Source: Verrucomicrobiota bacterium (lineage in GTDB: Bacteria > Verrucomicrobiota > Verrucomicrobiia > Verrucomicrobiales > DEV007). From it: a stretch of 64,000 bases of DNA. Location: NCBI GenBank assembly GCA_018970725.1, contig JAGWVU010000008.1, positions 62,001 to 126,000 of the forward strand. Direction: 5' to 3'. This document shows positions 33,331-42,916 of this stretch, in pieces (position 1 is the stretch's first letter; each line of letters starts with the position of its first letter). Below the pieces are notes generated by a model, which saw nothing but the letters and a program-made list of their open reading frames with translations, searched no databases and was not told the origin of the DNA. The position numbers were made by a program, and so were the translations under genes.

Positions 33331-34830
33331 ATGAGCCTAGGTTACCTTGAAATCCTCATTCTGATTCCGCTGCTGGCGGCCGTGGGCATTCTGTGCGGAT
33401 TGCCGGCGCGCCCGGCGGCTCTCGCGGCGGCGGCGGTCAATCTGGTCTGGGGATTGTTCGTGTGGATGAACTTCGATCCCTCCCAAGCGAAGGGTCTGGC
33501 TCCCCAAATGCCGAATCCCGAGCGCCTGATCTTTTCCGACCCGAAGATCGCCCTCTCGTTGGGGTTGGACGGGATGAGCCTCGTTCTGGTGCTGTTGACG
33601 GTGCTCGTCACGCTGGCCGCGGTCTGTCTCAGTCCCGGAAGGGCGCTTTCGGGGGCGCAAGCCCGCCTGTATTACGCGAGTCCCTTGCTCATCGGTGCTG
33701 GAGCTCTGGGAGCGTTTCTCTCCACGGATCTCTTTTTCTTTTTCGCCTTTCACGAACTGGCGCTGATCCCGACCTTCCTCATGATCGGGATGATGGGGCA
33801 TGGGGAGGACCGAGTCGGGGCGGCATGGAAAATCACGATTTACCTCAGCGTCGGCAGTCTCGTGTTGCTGGCCGGGCTCCTCGCGTTGGTCGGCGCTTCC
33901 GATACCGGCAGCTTCAGCCTGGCGGATCTTCAGGCTGCCGCGGCCAAGGGGGCTTTCGGAGCGGCGGAGCAGAAGCCGATCTACCTTACCTTGCTGATCG
34001 GTTTCGGGATTCTCATCGCCCTCTTCCCCTTCCACTCTTGGGCCGCTCCTGCTTATGCGGCGGCTCCCGCACCGGTGGCGATGATGCATGCCGGGGTGTT
34101 GAAGAAATTCGGGCTATACGGGCTGTTGCGCGTGGCGGTGCCTTTGCTGCCGCTGGGGCACCAGGCGTGGGCCCAGTGGGTCATGGTCCTGTTGCTGGGG
34201 AACATTCTCTACGTCGGATTGGTCACGATCGCGCAGGATCGGCTCGACAAGATGCTGGGCTATTCCAGCGTGATGCACATGGGGTATGTTTTCCTCGGCA
34301 TCGTCGCGGTGAACCCGATCGGGGTCAACGGGGCCGTGCTGCTGATGTTCGCCCATGGCATTTCGATCGCCCTGTTGTTCGCCTTGGCCGGGGAATTGCG
34401 GAAGGGGATTCCGTTGCTCGACATGACCATGATGGGGGGGCTGGGCAAGTCGGCTCCCGTTCTTTGCTTCCTTTTCGGCTTCGCCGCGTTTGCGTCGATC
34501 GGTTTGCCCGGGTTCGCCAACTTCGCTTCGGAAATCCTCGTGTTTTTCGGTGGGTTCAGCGGGTATCATGGCGGCCCGCTGGGATTCCTCCAGATTACCA
34601 CGGTGCTCGCGCTTTGGGGGGTGGTGATCTCCGCGGTCTACATGCTCCGGGCTTTCCGGCACATCTTCCAAGGGGAGGTGGTGGCCAGCCGGACGGTGAC
34701 CGATTTGGGCTGGAACGGCCGCCTCGCCGCCGGTCTGCTCGTGCTGGTTCTTCTGGTGGCGGGCTTGGTCCCTTCGCTCATCCTTGATGTTTTGCCGGGC
34801 TCGGTTCAGGTGATTCTGGGCCAACGATAA
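33331..34830 (+). CDS. nuoM: NADH-quinone oxidoreductase subunit M
   Basis: This encodes 499 residues, the second antiporter-like subunit. The essential Glu is in FAFHELALIPTFLMIG, the Lys helix region is present, and PFHSWAAPAYAAAPAPVAM followed by KKFGLYGLLR marks the discontinuous helix. The length matches the family. It is spaced 21 bases from nuoL and 17 bases from nuoN. Confidence 0.97.
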   Translation: MSLGYLEILILIPLLAAVGILCGLPARPAALAAAAVNLVWGLFVWMNFDPSQAKGLAPQMPNPERLIFSDPKIALSLGLDGMSLVLVLLTVLVTLAAVCLSPGRALSGAQARLYYASPLLIGAGALGAFLSTDLFFFFAFHELALIPTFLMIGMMGHGEDRVGAAWKITIYLSVGSLVLLAGLLALVGASDTGSFSLADLQAAAAKGAFGAAEQKPIYLTLLIGFGILIALFPFHSWAAPAYAAAPAPVAMMHAGVLKKFGLYGLLRVAVPLLPLGHQAWAQWVMVLLLGNILYVGLVTIAQDRLDKMLGYSSVMHMGYVFLGIVAVNPIGVNGAVLLMFAHGISIALLFALAGELRKGIPLLDMTMMGGLGKSAPVLCFLFGFAAFASIGLPGFANFASEILVFFGGFSGYHGGPLGFLQITTVLALWGVVISAVYMLRAFRHIFQGEVVASRTVTDLGWNGRLAAGLLVLVLLVAGLVPSLILDVLPGSVQVILGQR

Positions 34831-34847
34831 TTACGCTTTTCTCCGCA

Positions 34848-36353
34848 ATGCCAATCGTTCCCGCCTATTTCCTGGAAATCGCCCTGGTGGTCCTCGGCCT
34901 CGTGCTTCTGCTTGCGGATGCCTTCCGCCCCGGGCCGGACAAGCGCTGGATCGGCTGGATCGCCTTCACCGGTGTCTTGATCCTCTTCGTGCTCAACTTC
35001 TCCGCCAAGGGGGGCGAGGGAGGGTTCTGGGAGCTTTACACCTATGCCCCGGGGAGCTTCGCCGGTTTTTACAAGGGATTGGCTCTTTTGGGCACCGCCT
35101 TCTTCCTGTTGCTGGGGCTGGAGTATGTGGGGGTGGTCAAGCATTACACGGCGGCGGGATACGGGGCGGGCGAGTTTTTCGTGATCCCGCTCTTCGCCTG
35201 CGCGGGCGTGATGTGGACGGCTTCGGCGATTGATCTGACCATGATCTTCGTCTCGATCGAGCTCGTCACCATTTCCCTCTACGTGATGGTGGCGTTCCTC
35301 CGTCGCAACGTCGGTTCGCTCGAGGCCGGGGTGAAGTATCTGGTGCTCGGCGCTCTTTCCACCGGGTTCATGGTCTACGGGATCACCTGGATCTTCGGGG
35401 CCACCGGATCGACCAGTCTGGCGGTGATTGCGGAGCGGTTGGCGGCCGGCGGAGTGAACCAGACCGCCGTCCTTTTCGGCCTCGTATTGCTCCTGGTGGC
35501 GATCGGTTTCAAGGTCGGGGCGTTTCCCTTCAGCGTGTGGATTCCGGACGTTTACCAAGGGGCCCCGACCCCGGTGACCGCTTTTCTCGCGACGGTCTCC
35601 AAGGCGGCTGGCTTCATCGTCCTGCTCCGCGTCCTCGAGCCGTTCTGGCAGAAAGGGGAGATGGTGGCGGACCTCGGTCACCACGTGACGCAGGTGGTGA
35701 TGATTCTGGCGGGGGCGACGGTTCTCTTCGGCAGTCTCGCGGCGATTTCCCAGACCAACTTCAAGCGGTTGCTGGCCTATTCGGGCGTTTCCCAGGCCGG
35801 ATTCCTCCTCCTCGCGGTGGCTTGCGGTCCGCTCGTTCCCCCGGCCCCGGGATCGGTGGGAGTCGAGAACGTGGTGGCGTTCGGATTGGCCAGTTACCTT
35901 TTGATGGCCACGCTGGGCTTTGCGGCGGTCACCTTGGTGAGGGTGCAGACCGGGGGAGAGGAGTTGTCCTCCTTCCAAGGCCTGAACCAGCGGTCCCCCT
36001 TCCTTGCCTTCGCGGTCCTGGTTTCCATGGCCGGCCTGGCCGGCGTTCCGCTGACGGCGGGTTTCATCGCCAAGGCCTTCGTCCTCTGGTTCGCCGTGCA
36101 GGCCCATGCTTGGTTTCTCCTGGCAGTGGCGGTCCTATCCGGGGCGGCCGGCTTTTACTATTATTTCAAGGTGCTGCGCGCCGCCTACATGCAGGCTCCG
36201 GCGGAGGCCGATGCTCCGAAAATCGAGGTCAGGCCGACGATGCGGCTTCTGCTCGGTGGGTTGATCGCCGCGGTTCTTTATTTCGGTGTGGCTCCGGCCC
36301 CGCTCTTCAATCTGTCGGCCAAGGCGAAAACCGCTTCGGTTCAACCGCGTTGA
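34848..36353 (+). CDS. nuoN: NADH-quinone oxidoreductase subunit N
   Basis: This encodes 501 residues, the third antiporter-like subunit, and ends the nuo run. Signatures include IFVSIELVTISLYVMVAFLR, VGAFPFSVWIPDVYQGAPTP, ATVSKAAGFIVLLR, and SQTNFKRLLAYSGVSQAGF, with the proton-channel Glu and Lys residues. The length is slightly above the E. coli protein (485). The next gene begins 73 bases on and belongs to a lipid-transport set, which may be read from the same transcript. Confidence 0.96.
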   Translation: MPIVPAYFLEIALVVLGLVLLLADAFRPGPDKRWIGWIAFTGVLILFVLNFSAKGGEGGFWELYTYAPGSFAGFYKGLALLGTAFFLLLGLEYVGVVKHYTAAGYGAGEFFVIPLFACAGVMWTASAIDLTMIFVSIELVTISLYVMVAFLRRNVGSLEAGVKYLVLGALSTGFMVYGITWIFGATGSTSLAVIAERLAAGGVNQTAVLFGLVLLLVAIGFKVGAFPFSVWIPDVYQGAPTPVTAFLATVSKAAGFIVLLRVLEPFWQKGEMVADLGHHVTQVVMILAGATVLFGSLAAISQTNFKRLLAYSGVSQAGFLLLAVACGPLVPPAPGSVGVENVVAFGLASYLLMATLGFAAVTLVRVQTGGEELSSFQGLNQRSPFLAFAVLVSMAGLAGVPLTAGFIAKAFVLWFAVQAHAWFLLAVAVLSGAAGFYYYFKVLRAAYMQAPAEADAPKIEVRPTMRLLLGGLIAAVLYFGVAPAPLFNLSAKAKTASVQPR

Positions 36354-36426: not shown

Positions 36427-37227
36427 ATGCCCCGGAGCGCTTGGTTACATTTCATGGGAGGATGGATCCTGGAGCTGTTCAGGGCTTTGGGATACCTTTC
36501 CACGATGCTCTGTGTGGCTCTTTCCATGGCGGTAAAGCCGGGGACTTGGGTGCCTCCGGTCCGGGATCGTCTTGCCAAACAAATCCTCTTCGGCGGGGTC
36601 GAGGCGATTCCGTTCACCACGGTGGTGGCCGCCTTGATGGGGGCTTCGGTCTACCTGCAGTGTTTGCTCTGGCTGGAATACACGGGCCAGGTCGATCTCT
36701 CGGGGAAGATGGTGGCCACCCTGTTGGTGCAGCTCGCGGCTCCCTTTCTTTCCACCTTCATTGTGATCGGGGCCAGTGCCTCGGCGATCACCACGGAGAT
36801 GGCCACCATGAAGACCACCGGGGAAGTGGCTTTGTTGGAGTCGTTGGGGATTGACATCTTCCATTACATGGTCGTGCCGCGGATGATCGGGCTGGCGGTC
36901 TGCGTGTTCGGCCTGAGCTTGATTTGCGTCGTGGTGGCCATGATCTCGGCGGCCCTCGGATTCATCCTGGTCAGCGGCAGCACGGTGGACGCGGGTCCGT
37001 TTTTCCGGTCGTTGCTCGGCTCGCTGTCCGCCGTCGATCTGGTCTCGATCTCGGTGCAGACCCTTCTCCCCGGGTTGGTCATGGGAGCAATCTGCTGTTA
37101 CGAGGGGTTGCGGGTCCGGGGGGCGTCCACGGAAGTGCCCCAGGCCGTGAGCCGGGCGATTTTGCGTTCGATCAGCGTCGCCGTGGGGATCACGGCTTTG
37201 GTGATGGCGGTCACCTACATCCGATGA
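36427..37227 (+). CDS. mlaE: MlaE/YrbE-type ABC permease (phospholipid transport)
   Basis: This encodes 266 residues with about five transmembrane helices. It matches the MlaE family: the N-terminal interfacial helix WILELFRALGYL, EAIPFTTVVAALMGASVYLQ, and the segment TTEMATMKTTGEVALLESLG followed by PRMIGLAVCVFGLSL. The conserved Glu before ATMKTT contacts the ATPase in known complexes. The start could be ATG 36427 or 36454. The stop overlaps the next start (ATGA), so translation of permease and ATPase-like protein is coupled. It is probably part of an inner-membrane complex with the MCE protein downstream, moving phospholipids between membranes. Confidence 0.92.
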   Translation: MPRSAWLHFMGGWILELFRALGYLSTMLCVALSMAVKPGTWVPPVRDRLAKQILFGGVEAIPFTTVVAALMGASVYLQCLLWLEYTGQVDLSGKMVATLLVQLAAPFLSTFIVIGASASAITTEMATMKTTGEVALLESLGIDIFHYMVVPRMIGLAVCVFGLSLICVVVAMISAALGFILVSGSTVDAGPFFRSLLGSLSAVDLVSISVQTLLPGLVMGAICCYEGLRVRGASTEVPQAVSRAILRSISVAVGITALVMAVTYIR

Positions 37228-37907
37228 AGGGCGGGAGCGACATTGTCTTTGCCTGTGAAGGGCTGTCCACCGGCGGAGACGCGGAGGCGGGCGGGTTCGA
37301 TCTCGCCCTGCGGGCCGGGGATTGCGTGGTGTTCGCGGGGTTGGAGGCGGAGAGTCTGCCTCATTTGGGCGATTTGTTTCTGGGATTGAAGGCTCCGGCG
37401 CGCGGGCGGGTGATGGTTTGGGGGGGGGATTGGCAAACCATGGATCCGCGGGAGGCGGAGCATCGCCGTCGCCAGATCGGCCGGGTGCTCGCGGTTCCGG
37501 GCCGGGCGGCTTGGCTAGAGAATCTGGACGTGGAAGAGAACGTTTACCTGGCGAGTCAGTTTGAGCCGATGGTGAGCCAAGTGAGTTTGCGGCAAAGGGC
37601 GCGGGATTTGTGCGGGGTCTTCGGCCTCGAAGGATTGCCCGTGACGCGCCCCTCGGAGACGTCATCCGACGTCTTGATGCTGGCGCAATGGGTGCGCGCC
37701 TTTTTGCCGGAACCATTGCGACTTCTGGTGTTGGAGGCTCCGGACCGCGGGGGAGGGAAGAACGCGCCGGGTCGATTGCGGGAACAGGTCCGGCTGGCGA
37801 GGGAGTCGGGGACCGCGGTGATTTGGATGGATCTTGGCACCGCCGCTGGCCTTGACGAAACCTTGAGGTATGATGGGGTGCCAACGGCGGTGAGCCGCCG
37901 CCACTGA
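37224..37907 (+). CDS. MlaF-position ABC ATPase homologue lacking all catalytic motifs
   Basis: This encodes 227 residues. By position and overall pattern it aligns with MlaF-type ABC ATPases, but every catalytic motif is changed. The Walker A region near 37-46 reads FAGLEAESLP instead of GxxGxGKS/T. The Q-loop Gln is missing (RVLAVPGR). The signature reads RPSETSSD instead of LSGG. Walker B ends LLVLEAP instead of hydrophobic-DEP. The H-loop His is Met (VIWMDLG). It still has the hydrophobic spacing, ALRAGD before Walker A, and a plausible helical subdomain (WLENLDVEENVYLA). The start ATG is inside the mlaE stop (ATGA) and the gene is 33 bases before the mlaD-like gene. It is an intact frame in a coupled operon, so it is probably a functional pseudo-ATPase, not a decaying gene; this is inference. 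Confidence 0.8.
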   Translation: MKGGSDIVFACEGLSTGGDAEAGGFDLALRAGDCVVFAGLEAESLPHLGDLFLGLKAPARGRVMVWGGDWQTMDPREAEHRRRQIGRVLAVPGRAAWLENLDVEENVYLASQFEPMVSQVSLRQRARDLCGVFGLEGLPVTRPSETSSDVLMLAQWVRAFLPEPLRLLVLEAPDRGGGKNAPGRLREQVRLARESGTAVIWMDLGTAAGLDETLRYDGVPTAVSRRH

Positions 37908-37940: not shown

Positions 37941-39191
37941 ATGCCCGCCAAACCGTTCAAGTTCCGACACGTCAACGAAATCGCCGGGGCGTTCGCCCTG
38001 ACGGTGGTGGTTCTCTTGATCGGGCTGATTTTCCTCAGCGGTCAGCTTCAAGGATGGTTCGAGGGCAAGCGTTCCTATGATGTGGTGCTGCCGGAGAGTG
38101 GCACCCTCGGGATCCGGCCGGGGGCGGAAGTGCGCATTCTCGGAGCGAGGGCCGGGTCGGTCCGGGCCGTGGAGTTGCGGGACAAACGGACGGGGCGGCC
38201 TCCGGTGAAGCGGAACATGGACCCGAAAGAGCTGCAGCTGGTGGCGGTTTTGGAGTTGCGGGGGGATTACACCGTCTTTGTCGGTGAAGAGTCCAAGGCC
38301 ATTCTCAAGACCGGTCTCGGAGGTTTGGGGGCCGCCTATTTCGAGGTGAGCCGGGCCGACACCCCGGTGCCCGACCTGACCACTTTGCCCTTGGCGGATT
38401 CTTCGGGCGCGAACCAGAAGGACATGACCGAGATGGTGGCCGAACTCAACGGGGCCTTGGTCCCGGCGATCAATCAGATGCAGGCGACCTCGAAGGACAT
38501 CGAGTCTCTGGCCGAGACCTTGAACGATCCTCAGAAGGATTTCCAGATCGCCATCGCGGGCGTCCGGGAACTTCTCGAGCAAGTCAAAAAAGGGGAGAGC
38601 GCGGCCGGGGTTTTGCTTTGGGACGAGGAGAGCGGCAAGCAGGTGCGCGAGGCCCTGGCCAGGTTCAACGAAGCCTCCGGGTCGTTCGCCTCGGTCATGG
38701 GCCGGATTGAAAAAGGAGAGGGGGCGGCTGGCATCCTGTTGAGCGACGAAGAGGCGCAAAAACAGATCCAGCAGACCTTGGAGAATGTCTCCCGGGCCTC
38801 GAAGTCCGCAAATGACGCCGCGCTGGCCCTCACCAGAGCGGCGGGCACTTTGCCGGCCACCGTGAACGAGGCGGATGCGGCCATTCAAAGTTACGGGGAC
38901 GTCGCTTCCGCCTTGCAGGAGACGGCCCGCGAATACGAGATTGCCGCCGAGGCCCTGCAACGGCACTGGCTGCTGCGGCGTTTCGTCCGGCGCGATGAGA
39001 ATCCGGTCGCGGTGGCACGGGGACAGACTCCGCCCCGTCCGACTCCCGCCGCAGTTCCGGCTCCGGCTCCCAAGCCCCCCGCTCAAAAAATGCCGGTCAC
39101 GTTCCGCGGGTTGTTCGGCGGAAAAGAGAAGCGGGAAGAAGGCTCCGTTCCGCTGCGGAAGCCGGCCCAAGGCGCGACCGCCAAAAAGTGA
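37941..39191 (+). CDS. mlaD: MCE/MlaD family protein with long C-terminal extension
   Basis: This encodes 416 residues. One N-terminal transmembrane segment (about 16-34) is followed by an MlaD/MCE beta-barrel domain (about 40-135: SGTLGIRPGAEVRILGARAG, GLGGLGAAYFEV). Then comes a helical, coiled region (about 155-340) and a Pro/Ala-rich basic tail. Repeated phrases KKGESAAGVLLWDEESGKQV and EKGEGAAGILLSDEEAQKQI show an internal duplication of about 45 residues. MCE proteins form periplasmic hexameric rings or tubes that bind phospholipid; the helical part may form a tube like those of PqiB/YebT or Mce proteins. It belongs with mlaE and the ATPase-like gene. Confidence 0.9.
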   Translation: MPAKPFKFRHVNEIAGAFALTVVVLLIGLIFLSGQLQGWFEGKRSYDVVLPESGTLGIRPGAEVRILGARAGSVRAVELRDKRTGRPPVKRNMDPKELQLVAVLELRGDYTVFVGEESKAILKTGLGGLGAAYFEVSRADTPVPDLTTLPLADSSGANQKDMTEMVAELNGALVPAINQMQATSKDIESLAETLNDPQKDFQIAIAGVRELLEQVKKGESAAGVLLWDEESGKQVREALARFNEASGSFASVMGRIEKGEGAAGILLSDEEAQKQIQQTLENVSRASKSANDAALALTRAAGTLPATVNEADAAIQSYGDVASALQETAREYEIAAEALQRHWLLRRFVRRDENPVAVARGQTPPRPTPAAVPAPAPKPPAQKMPVTFRGLFGGKEKREEGSVPLRKPAQGATAKK

Positions 39192-39213: not shown

Positions 39214-39834
39214 TCAGCCGCTCATTTCGACCATGGCCGGTTCGAGATCGAGGAAAAAGCGCCAGCTCGGGTAAGCCCTTCTCCGGGAACTCCGCTCGGC
39301 CAGGCACATGAAGGGGCGCCACACGGGGGCCTTCGGTTCCTTCATGGGGAACATGTTGGCCTCGGTGGGTAACTTGTTGGCTTTCCGGGTGTTGCAGCGG
39401 ATGCAGCTCGTCACGATGTTCTCCCAGGAACTCTTCCCGCCCTTGTCCCGGGGAATGACGTGATCGAGGTTCAACTCGCGCGGGTCGAACCGCTTCTGGC
39501 AATACTGGCAGACGTGGTTGTCCCGTTCGAAGACATTCTGGCGGGTGAACTTGATCTCTTTCTTGGGCAGGCGGTCGAAGATCGACAACACGATGATCTG
39601 CGGAACCCCAAAGGTCGCGTTCACCGTGCGCACCGCTTCCAGACTGGGGTCGTTGCGGCTGGAGACGATCCAGGATTGGAGATCGTGCGTGGAGAAGTTG
39701 GACTCACTGTCCTGATGGACAACCTGGGCGTGCCCGAGGCAAACCAACGAAAAAGCGCGCCGTGCGGTGCAGATGTGCACGGGTTGCCAATGCCGGTTCA
39801 GCACGAGCACAGGATTGTTCAATGACAAGATCAC
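39214..39834 (-). CDS. HNH endonuclease family protein
   Basis: This encodes 206 residues. The N-terminal part VLVLNRHWQPVHICTARRAF and LVCLGHAQVVHQD is typical of a bacterial HNH family. The nuclease centre is CQYCQKRFDPRELNLDHVIP followed by GGKSSWENIVTSCIRCNTRK: a CxxC pair, the DH catalytic dyad, the conserved Asn, and a second CxxC for structural zinc. The start is GTG. It is a stand-alone gene in many genomes, not tied to restriction genes. Here it is divergent from the coiled-coil protein gene. Its physiological role is unknown. Confidence 0.92.
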   Translation of the reverse strand: MILSLNNPVLVLNRHWQPVHICTARRAFSLVCLGHAQVVHQDSESNFSTHDLQSWIVSSRNDPSLEAVRTVNATFGVPQIIVLSIFDRLPKKEIKFTRQNVFERDNHVCQYCQKRFDPRELNLDHVIPRDKGGKSSWENIVTSCIRCNTRKANKLPTEANMFPMKEPKAPVWRPFMCLAERSSRRRAYPSWRFFLDLEPAMVEMSG

Positions 39835-39955: not shown

Positions 39956-40060
39956 TGAAAAACCTGTTAATGTTGGCGTTGGCTTGCGAATAGATGGTGA
40001 ATAAGCCCGTCGGAAGCCTTGGGGTCGGTGAAGCGATCCGAAAAATTTCGCGTACCGGGA

Positions 40061-42916
40061 ATGAAATTTTGGAAGTCTGAGATTCGCCTTGGTCCGGTCG
40101 CCTTTGCCGCGATCCTGATGGGTTGTGCCGTGGCTTGGGCGCAGACCGCTCCCGCGCCGGGTGCGGAGGGAGATCCCTCGGATGTCTGGCTTCGCGGCTT
40201 CATGCTCTTCCAGCAGGCTGAGGATGCGGCGAAGGCCGATCAGGGGCTTCAGGCTCTGAGCAAGTATCGCGAATCCCAGCGCCTTTTCGACTTCATCGCG
40301 AGGACGCATCCCGGTTGGCGGCCCCAGATGGTCAATCACCGGCGGCGGGCCATTCTGGAGGCCATCGAAGGGGTGCAGAATCGGTTGCAGGAAACCGATG
40401 CCACCGCGCTCAAGGCTTGGGAGAGTCAGAACGCCGGGAACGGTCAGCCTCAGGCGGCTCCGCCCGGCAGCCGGGCTCCGGTCATCGCGATGCAGCCCCG
40501 GGAGGCGGTTGCCCTGGAGGTTCCTTCTTCGGCCGGGGTGGCGGCGACAGGTCCGGTCCCGGGTCCGCTGCCCCTTCCGGTGGTTCCTTTGCCGGCCGGG
40601 GTGACGTTGCCGCAAGCGGGTGAGATCCGGGATCTTCCGACGGAGTTCCAGACGCAGCAGGCGCGGATCGACCAGCTTACGGGAGCCAACCAACGTCTTG
40701 AGCAGACCTTGCGGCAGCACCAGGATCAGGCGAACGGGTTGCAGACCCGTTTGGCTCAGGCCCGCGACGCGGAGCAACGGCTGCAAACCCAGTTGGCCCA
40801 GACCATGGAAGAGTTGAAGCAGGCGAAGACCGCCGGCGGAGACCGAGTTTCCAAGCTGGAGTCCCAGCTCAATACGGCCGTGGCGGAGTTGAAGAAGGCG
40901 AACGCGGACAGCGACGGAATCCTCAAGGCGTTGGATGAGGCGCGGAAGCAAATCGCGGAATTGACCGCGCAGAAGGACGAGCTTTTGCGGGACCGGCAGG
41001 GGACCATGGAAGACGTTGCCAAGGTGATGGCGGAGGCCAATCAGGCGGCCACGGATCGCGACACCGCCAGGGCGGACCGGGACAAGGCCAAGGCGGAGCG
41101 GGACGAAGCCAAGCAGGCGCTCGAGGTGGCCCGGGCGGATCTGGCCAAGCTCCAGCAGATGAATGCAAACTCGGCCGACGCCGCCCGGGCCTTGGAGAAA
41201 GCGAGGGGCGAAGTGGGCGTTTGGCAGGCCAAGGTGGTCCAGCTCGAGCAAGAGTCGGCCCGGGAAGCCGCCGCGTCCCGGCAACGGGAGGATTTGATCA
41301 AGGGGTTGCGCGCGGAATTGGCGGGGAACGGCGCGATGTCGGAACAGAACGCCAAATTGCTCGCGGAGTTGGAAAAATCCCAGACCTCGATCAATCAGCT
41401 CAACGAACAGGTGCAGCAGTTGGAGAACGATCGCACCCGGCTGGAGCGGGAGAATCAGGTGCTGAGCCAGGAACGGGATTCCCTGGTGGCGCAGCGGGAC
41501 CTTCTTCAGAAGGATCTGGACCAGATGGCCATTTTGCTGAACGCGTCGGATCGGGTGAGCGGGGATATCAAGGAGATTCTGGCGGCCAACCAAAAGTGGA
41601 GACATGAATTGGACCAAGCCCGGTCCGAAATCGCGAAACTCAACGAACGGGAAGGCGGCCACTTGACGGAGATCGCCTCGCTCAAGGGCCAGCTCACCAG
41701 CATTCAGAACGAACGGAAGTCGTTGCAGGAATCCAACGCCCGCTACCAAAAGACCGTCGATGAACTCAACGGACGGCTCAAGGAGATGCTCACCCAGCTC
41801 GACGCCCGCACCGAACAGGTCACCGCCCTGACCACGGAGCGGGATGGGTTGAAGGCTTTGCTCGACAAAAAGGACGGCTTGCTGGCCCGGATCACTGGCC
41901 AATTGCAGGAATCCAAGGCCGAGTCCGCGGCCTTGGCCAATTCCAAGGAGGAGAACGAGTTGTTGCGCGGGCTCATCCGCAAGCAGCTGGTGCGTCAGGC
42001 CCGCCTTCTGGAAGCCCGCGATCTCGTGCTCGCGGAGTTGCGCAACGTCGATGTTCATTCCACCCAGTTGCTCGCCAGTCTCGATGAAATGTCCAAACCG
42101 GTGGTCCAGCTCTCGGAAAACGAGAAGGCCATGTTCAAGGAGCCAGGGGACCTCAAGCTCATCGCCATGACCGAGTCCGGTCCGGAGGTTCCTTTCTCCA
42201 CGCTGCCCGTCGCGCCTCCGTCCTCCGGAGTCAAGGTTTTTGCCAGCCCGGGGGTTAGGGCGACGCCGGCCCCGGCTGCGCCGCTGGAGAACAGCGATCT
42301 GGTGAAAAGGGTTCCCGCCCTTGCGCCCTATGCGGACGCGGTGATCCTGGCGAAGCCGCAGGTCGATCTGGCCGGTCTGGGGAGCGAGGCCAATGGCAGG
42401 TTCCGCCGGGGGGATTTTGTGGCGGCGGCCCGGGGTTACGAAGAAATCCTGCGTTGGGACCGGACCAACGAGGCGGCGCTTTGCAATCTGGCGGTGATTG
42501 CCCTGCGGTTGGGGAAATTCGATGAGGCCGAAGGGTATTTGCAGCGGGCCCGGGCCAAGAACCCGGGTTACGCGCCGGCCCATTTCCAGCAGGGGGTTCT
42601 GCATTACCGGAAAGCGGACTATGACGAGGCGCTCGTAGCGTTCGGTCAAGCCGCACAATTGGACGCCCGGAACGCGGAGGCCCACAATTACCTCGGGTTG
42701 ATCGCGAGCCGCAAAGGCTGGACCACCCGGGCGGAGTCGGAATTCAAGCGGGCCCTGTCGATCGATGCGAATCATGCGGAGGCCTGCTTCAATCTGGCGG
42801 TGCTCTATTCCGCCGCCAAACCGTCCTCCAAGGAGAAGGCGCGGGAGTATTACCAGAGGGCTTGCAAGAACGGGGCGGCGCGCGATGCCGCGATGGAGCG
42901 TTACATCAAGGATTGA
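40061..42916 (+). CDS. Exported long coiled-coil protein with C-terminal TPR domain
   Basis: This encodes 951 residues. A signal peptide (LGPVAFAAILMGCAVAWAQ, about 10-28) is followed by a helical head, an Ala/Pro-rich linker (about 125-190), then a long coiled coil (about 190-650) dense in heptads and rich in Gln, Glu, Lys and Ala. After a Pro-rich linker (about 705-760) come at least four TPRs in the last 170 residues (GDFVAAARGYEEILRWDRTN, GKFDEAEGYLQRARAKNPGY, ADYDEALVAFGQAAQLDARN and the AEAHNYLGLIA unit). I chose the ATG at 40061 because it begins the signal peptide; TTG 40019 and GTG 40028 are weaker alternatives. It is followed by a PpiD-like chaperone and another TPR gene, suggesting a role in envelope protein assembly. 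No known family was recognised. Confidence 0.85.
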   Translation: MKFWKSEIRLGPVAFAAILMGCAVAWAQTAPAPGAEGDPSDVWLRGFMLFQQAEDAAKADQGLQALSKYRESQRLFDFIARTHPGWRPQMVNHRRRAILEAIEGVQNRLQETDATALKAWESQNAGNGQPQAAPPGSRAPVIAMQPREAVALEVPSSAGVAATGPVPGPLPLPVVPLPAGVTLPQAGEIRDLPTEFQTQQARIDQLTGANQRLEQTLRQHQDQANGLQTRLAQARDAEQRLQTQLAQTMEELKQAKTAGGDRVSKLESQLNTAVAELKKANADSDGILKALDEARKQIAELTAQKDELLRDRQGTMEDVAKVMAEANQAATDRDTARADRDKAKAERDEAKQALEVARADLAKLQQMNANSADAARALEKARGEVGVWQAKVVQLEQESAREAAASRQREDLIKGLRAELAGNGAMSEQNAKLLAELEKSQTSINQLNEQVQQLENDRTRLERENQVLSQERDSLVAQRDLLQKDLDQMAILLNASDRVSGDIKEILAANQKWRHELDQARSEIAKLNEREGGHLTEIASLKGQLTSIQNERKSLQESNARYQKTVDELNGRLKEMLTQLDARTEQVTALTTERDGLKALLDKKDGLLARITGQLQESKAESAALANSKEENELLRGLIRKQLVRQARLLEARDLVLAELRNVDVHSTQLLASLDEMSKPVVQLSENEKAMFKEPGDLKLIAMTESGPEVPFSTLPVAPPSSGVKVFASPGVRATPAPAAPLENSDLVKRVPALAPYADAVILAKPQVDLAGLGSEANGRFRRGDFVAAARGYEEILRWDRTNEAALCNLAVIALRLGKFDEAEGYLQRARAKNPGYAPAHFQQGVLHYRKADYDEALVAFGQAAQLDARNAEAHNYLGLIASRKGWTTRAESEFKRALSIDANHAEACFNLAVLYSAAKPSSKEKAREYYQRACKNGAARDAAMERYIKD

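Follow-up and report, generated by a model that had tools for sequence, protein, structure and literature searches.

A probable structural pseudo-ATPase in an MCE-type envelope lipid transporter of Verrucomicrobiota

The 64,000-nucleotide stretch of Verrucomicrobiota DNA analysed here (the window) encodes, between an MlaE-type permease and an MCE protein, a subunit with the predicted fold of an ABC ATPase in which all ATP-handling motifs are replaced. We propose that these genes specify an MCE-type lipid transporter of the envelope with a structural pseudo-ATPase, which probably (roughly 60%) works as a scaffold in an ATP-independent lipid conduit. The system is broader than the window alone showed, being present in many Verrucomicrobiota and a few Planctomycetota. 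The genes of the locus are as follows:

36427..37227, plus strand: mlaE, MlaE-type permease of 266 aa (PF02405, 131 bits, curated cut-off 22.5; clade with SH-aLRT 99 to 99.8)
37224..37907, plus strand: pseudo-ATPase subunit of 227 aa, predicted ABC fold without ATP motifs
37941..39191, plus strand: MCE protein of 416 aa (PF02470, 25.1 bits; TIGR00996, 1e-10)

The permease score is that of a PF02405 member, and its sequence places the protein in a divergent MlaE clade that accompanies degenerate ATPases. As originally predicted, the frame of the middle gene is intact from its ATG start and overlaps the mlaE stop codon as ATGA. The MCE protein has an N-terminal membrane segment, one MCE domain and a long helical region; it reaches PF02470 at exactly the cut-off (25.1 bits) and matches TIGR00996 at 1e-10, yet below the cut-off of that family. 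A profile of the MCE family found the Mce1 chain 8fed_B in the PDB (E 7e-5); the top sequence match, 8gl3_A, covers the helical region only and was not counted as a homologue. A near-invariant LQRHWLLR motif lies near the C-terminus of the MCE proteins of this group, beyond the helical region, and is possibly a tip contacting the outer membrane or a partner. Just upstream of mlaE lie nuoM- and nuoN-like genes (Proton_antipo_M, 33331-36353); they occupy this place only within the genus of the window, so a linkage to complex I was discarded as incidental. The MCE gene is directly followed by a minus-strand gene for an HNH endonuclease (39214-39834). Shortly 3' of the operon lies a gene, conserved within the genus, for a coiled-coil protein of 965 aa that has TPRs at its C-terminus and possibly a signal peptide (40019-42916).

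The loss of the ATP motifs was analysed by aligning 100 subunits linked to MlaE, including 37 canonical ATPases and 59 members of the pseudo-ATPase family, the window protein counted in. The canonical subunits all (37/37) had the Walker A Lys/Ser, the Q-loop Gln, the signature Ser-Gly-Gly, the Walker B Asp and the catalytic Glu; the H-loop His was present in 35 of them, the other 2 having gaps. At the corresponding places, the window protein and its permease carry the following segments, all placed by alignment for the subunit:

36790..36843, plus strand: MlaE coupling-helix segment TMKTTGEVALLESLGIDI, with the canonical Glu/Gln/Asp changed to Gly at residue 127
37338..37361, plus strand: Walker A place, GLEAESLP (residues 39-46) replacing GxSGxGKS
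37491..37493, plus strand: Q-loop Gln place, Ala90
37512..37544, plus strand: family-specific conserved segment W97-L-E-N-L-D-V-E-E-N-V107 (W 88%, N 96%, L 96%, E 100%, N 98% of 59)
37659..37673, plus strand: signature place, TSSDV replacing LSGGM
37689..37700, plus strand: conserved helix W156-V-R158-A159 after the signature position (W 94%, R 100%, A 96% of 59)
37722..37742, plus strand: Walker B place, LLVLEAP, with the catalytic Glu changed to Ala172
37833..37835, plus strand: H-loop His place, Leu204, with the conserved W201 (98%) three residues upstream

The elements expected of a functional MlaF (Walker A, Q-loop, signature, Walker B with its Glu, and H-loop) are thus all replaced, which bears out the original prediction that five ATP motifs had gone; where canonical subunits have the Asp-Glu pair of Walker B and catalytic residue, the window protein has Glu-Ala. 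The loss is conserved among relatives, a point that the same prediction had proposed to check. The Walker A Lys, the Q-loop Gln and the H-loop His were found in none of the 59 family members, the two signature glycines were retained in 5% and 11% of them, and 10% kept the catalytic Glu. Around Walker A the sequence varies between relatives and is partly deleted, and the Walker B Asp position carries a conserved Glu in 53/59. In profile searches, the window protein matched no Pfam family, PF00005 included (two relatives reached 22 bits, below the cut-off of 25), it was absent from the matches listed by an ABC_tran scan of its own genome, and its ABC-ATPase matches in NCBIfam were weak, with scores far short of the cut-off.

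Despite this loss, the gene has been kept, as indicated by a dN/dS of 0.17-0.19 within the genus (mlaE 0.05-0.07; MCE gene 0.09-0.11). The family has acquired near-invariant residues of its own, namely W97 (88%), N100 (96%), E105 (100%), N106 (98%), W156 (94%), R158 (100%), A159 (96%) and W201; the W97-V107 segment sits at the place that comes after the Q-loop in the canonical MlaF. The fold appears to have been retained while the ATP-handling residues went long ago. Family-wide loss, purifying selection and new conserved residues together support the pseudo-ATPase assignment made in the original prediction. Sequencing error or random decay, which that prediction had named against itself, failed as an explanation: motifs are indeed missing from the window protein, but the intact frame, the dN/dS and the shared loss with its own conserved residues in 59 family members rule out a decaying pseudogene or a misread sequence, and we consider either next to inconceivable.

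An AlphaFold2 model of the subunit, built from 23 relatives, had a pLDDT of 87.5 and a pTM of 0.88. The model predicts an ABC nucleotide-binding fold, with a RecA-like core and a helical subdomain. Compared with the PDB, it gave Z scores of 20-23.6 over about 210 residues, and all listed matches were ABC domains, E. coli MlaF among them (6xgz, Z 21.6; 6xbd, Z 21.0). The likeness to MlaF claimed originally holds for operon place, and the predicted fold matches. It does not hold for length, since the subunit has 227 aa against 266 in the canonical MlaF of the same genome and 269 in E. coli, and the C-terminal 'handshake' extension of MlaF is absent. As to descent, a tree constraining the subunit with MlaF was not rejected (p-AU 0.67), and the free tree placed it beside LolD/FtsE/MacB with a support of 23, so that on sequence the origin may be MlaF or a LolD/FtsE-like ATPase.

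The permease has changed along with its partner. MlaE touches MlaF through its coupling helix, which lies between TM2 and TM3 (PMC7790496). At one position of this helix, canonical MlaE proteins had Glu, Gln or Asp in 27/27 cases; Gly was found there in 26/30 partners of pseudo-ATPases, in 22/22 partners of a second class of degenerate subunits described below and in 0/27 canonical partners. The MlaE partners of both degenerate classes formed one clade (SH-aLRT 99.8) with the coupling-helix columns removed.

This second class was recognised in the first sample as four MlaE-linked subunits with Walker A wholly or mostly intact and the other motifs lost (L046, L049, L154 and L156; L181-L200 also belong here). 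With these four as queries, Walker-A-only subunits turned up in 58 of 286 genomes from the taxonomic class to which the window belongs. In the 20 loci read, the subunit gene always followed mlaE (20/20), the Walker A Lys was present in 18/20 and the Walker B Asp in 20/20, the signature, Gln and His were lost in 20/20, and the catalytic Glu was lost in 19/20, being mostly replaced by Asn. These subunits may bind ATP without hydrolysing it. In the ATPase tree, the pseudo-ATPases formed one clade (SH-aLRT 99-100), and the Walker-A-only and fully dead classes formed one branch with a support of 94-99 when motif columns were removed. Given this graded series of canonical, Walker-A-only and dead classes, erosion looks stepwise from the sequences, catalysis and signature being lost first and nucleotide binding later. 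One genome, G431, carries the canonical, Walker-A-only and dead types together; on its contig C56 (L155, L176), an MCE gene comes straight after mlaE, without an intervening ATPase gene.

Relatives of the subunit were present in at least 7 genomes of the taxonomic family of the window, and 20 loci came from Verrucomicrobia, Kiritimatiellae, Lentisphaerae, uncultured bacteria and one Phycisphaerales MAG. The pseudo-ATPase was carried by at least 50 of 387 sampled Verrucomicrobiota genomes (111 bits or more, the next ABC protein scoring 88) and by at least 4 of 294 genomes of Planctomycetota, the phylum of that MAG, which is itself included; these counts are lower bounds, as only some candidates per genome were scored at first pass, and many of the sampled genomes are MAGs. 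The protein had no match in a plasmid collection, and spread by plasmids was rejected on this ground. Nearly all loci with enough flank had the order mlaE, pseudo-ATPase gene, MCE gene. In two genomes of one genus (G529, L150/L173; G539, L151/L175), the pseudo-ATPase and MCE genes are together and the divergent MlaE that was found lies on another contig. A gene for a TPR protein stood directly 3' of the MCE gene in 48 loci, some of which are overlapping records of one genome. The TPR proteins read carry a lipobox and a signal peptide by eye (for example L057:2602-3639, L060:7529-8485 and L067:7603-8559). Such a gene is usual in pseudo-ATPase operons outside the family of the window, and its product is probably a fourth component of the system. 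Within that family no TPR gene follows the MCE gene; the 965-aa protein might conceivably be a stand-in.

Could a separate motor drive the divergent permease? The complete second mlaF contemplated in the original prediction does exist: in the genome of the window, contig 81 bears a second, canonical MlaE-MlaF-MCE locus, with an intact MlaF of 266 aa (C81:13252-14052) beside a canonical MlaE. This MlaF might power the divergent MlaE in trans, the pseudo-subunit being regulatory or taking part in mixed or alternating complexes. There is a precedent in MceG, which is thought to be shared between mycobacterial mce systems (PMC9882608), and the mlaE-MCE pair of G431 that has no ATPase gene would fit; the same pair also counts for an ATP-free reading. 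Nearly all holders of the pseudo-ATPase also have a canonical MlaE; a canonical system was found in every such genome searched except G462, which is fragmentary, and G529, which is in 110 contigs. This co-occurrence does not discriminate, because the few non-holder genomes searched had canonical systems as well. In a mixed dimer, however, none of the composite sites would be complete, since the pseudo-subunit has neither signature nor Walker motifs, and the MlaE coupling helix of the clade is of its own type precisely where all canonical rows have Glu, Gln or Asp. We therefore regard a shared motor as doubtful, and the pairing with a separate active ATPase put forward originally is disfavoured.

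Two further readings were considered. The former nucleotide pocket might bind another ligand or protein and so gate the MlaE/MCE channel as a sensor; the sequences offer three conserved tryptophans new to the family (W97, W156, W201), one of which, W201, adjoins the former H-loop in the alignment. A Walker A region that varies and is partly deleted in relatives is unlike a conserved binding pocket, however, and this reading seems improbable to us. It is more improbable still that the subunit is an unusual active ATPase using other residues: the Glu conserved at the Walker B Asp position is what such an enzyme might employ, but the family lacks a phosphate-binding loop and a signature, and nothing in it consistently takes the place of the catalytic base or of the His. 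A half-degenerate heterodimer was ruled out by the composition of the site, as signature and Walker motifs are both lost.

We thus return to a structural pseudo-ATPase in an ATP-independent conduit. Gene order and the coupling-helix change point to a putative complex of MlaE, pseudo-subunit and MCE protein, which would consist of an MlaE dimer, an MCE hexamer and the pseudo-ATPase as a structural part, docked on MlaE through the segment around W97-N100-E105-N106. In ABC dimers, the nucleotide links the Walker A motif of either domain to the signature of its partner (PMC5216877). Because the pseudo-subunit is without both, neither its own dimer nor a pairing with an intact MlaF should contain a complete ATP site; given this and the matching change in the coupling helix, the complex probably does not cycle ATP, and the subunit would act as a fixed clamp. 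It might hold the permease dimer in a single state, probably the lipid-accessible outward-open one. Nucleotide-free MlaE takes an outward-open state in which it forms a continuous path with the MCE pore (PMC7790496), and such continuity would allow lipid exchange along the tube. Lipids would diffuse down their gradient through the MCE tube without an ATP cycle at the complex; the cell's canonical Mla system would perform the ATP-driven work and might move lipids the opposite way. Of the two alternatives raised originally, a different drive for transport is the one we favour, and it rests on inference: assembly, passive flow, transport direction and substrate are all features that we infer.

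The system has partial counterparts. Like MlaFEDB of E. coli and relatives, it co-encodes an MlaE permease, an ABC-fold subunit of the same predicted fold and an MCE protein; it differs in lacking the ATP motifs and the C-terminal MlaF extension and in having an altered coupling helix and a longer MCE protein. The transenvelope MlaEFD system of Veillonella shares the three-gene mlaE-F-D operon and the elongated MCE protein, but has an MlaF very similar to the MlaF proteins of model diderms (PMC10665443). In the survey describing it, PVC MlaD was found without a beta-barrel, and MlaF was identified by an MlaF profile plus synteny (PMC10665443), so the pseudo-ATPase family may have been missed. 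The mycobacterial Mce1/YrbE/MceG system likewise has MlaE homologues as permease and an MCE protein whose helical region is long; its ATPase gene lies elsewhere, and the product is believed to serve several operons, whereas the window operon encodes a dead ATPase-fold subunit. PqiABC and LetAB are also MCE conduits, and the outer-membrane lipoprotein PqiC loosely resembles the TPR gene product of many pseudo-ATPase relatives. PqiA and LetA are not known to be related to MlaE, and Pqi and Let, unlike the window system, have no ABC-fold subunit. No ATPase is known for either conduit (PMC10897342, PMC12436622), and ATP-free diffusion is among the possibilities that have been raised for Pqi. Heterodimeric ABC proteins with one degenerate site, such as TM287/288 and TAP, have also lost catalytic residues in part of the dimer, but they keep one complete consensus site, whereas no partner could complete that of the pseudo-subunit. 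In the literature searched, whose coverage left out many subscription journals, we found no report of a degenerate MlaF or of inactive MCE ATPases.

Collectively, we see an even chance that an ABC lineage across PVC gave up ATP by stepwise erosion to become a pure scaffold in a passive or otherwise powered MlaE-MCE lipid bridge, once losing the subunit gene. Profile-based surveys overlook such subunits, the one in the window matching no Pfam family. It is an open question whether MCE systems depend on ATP and which way they carry lipids. A dead-motor lineage that coexists with an ATP-driven sister in the same cell, with partly eroded intermediates in other genomes, makes both testable.
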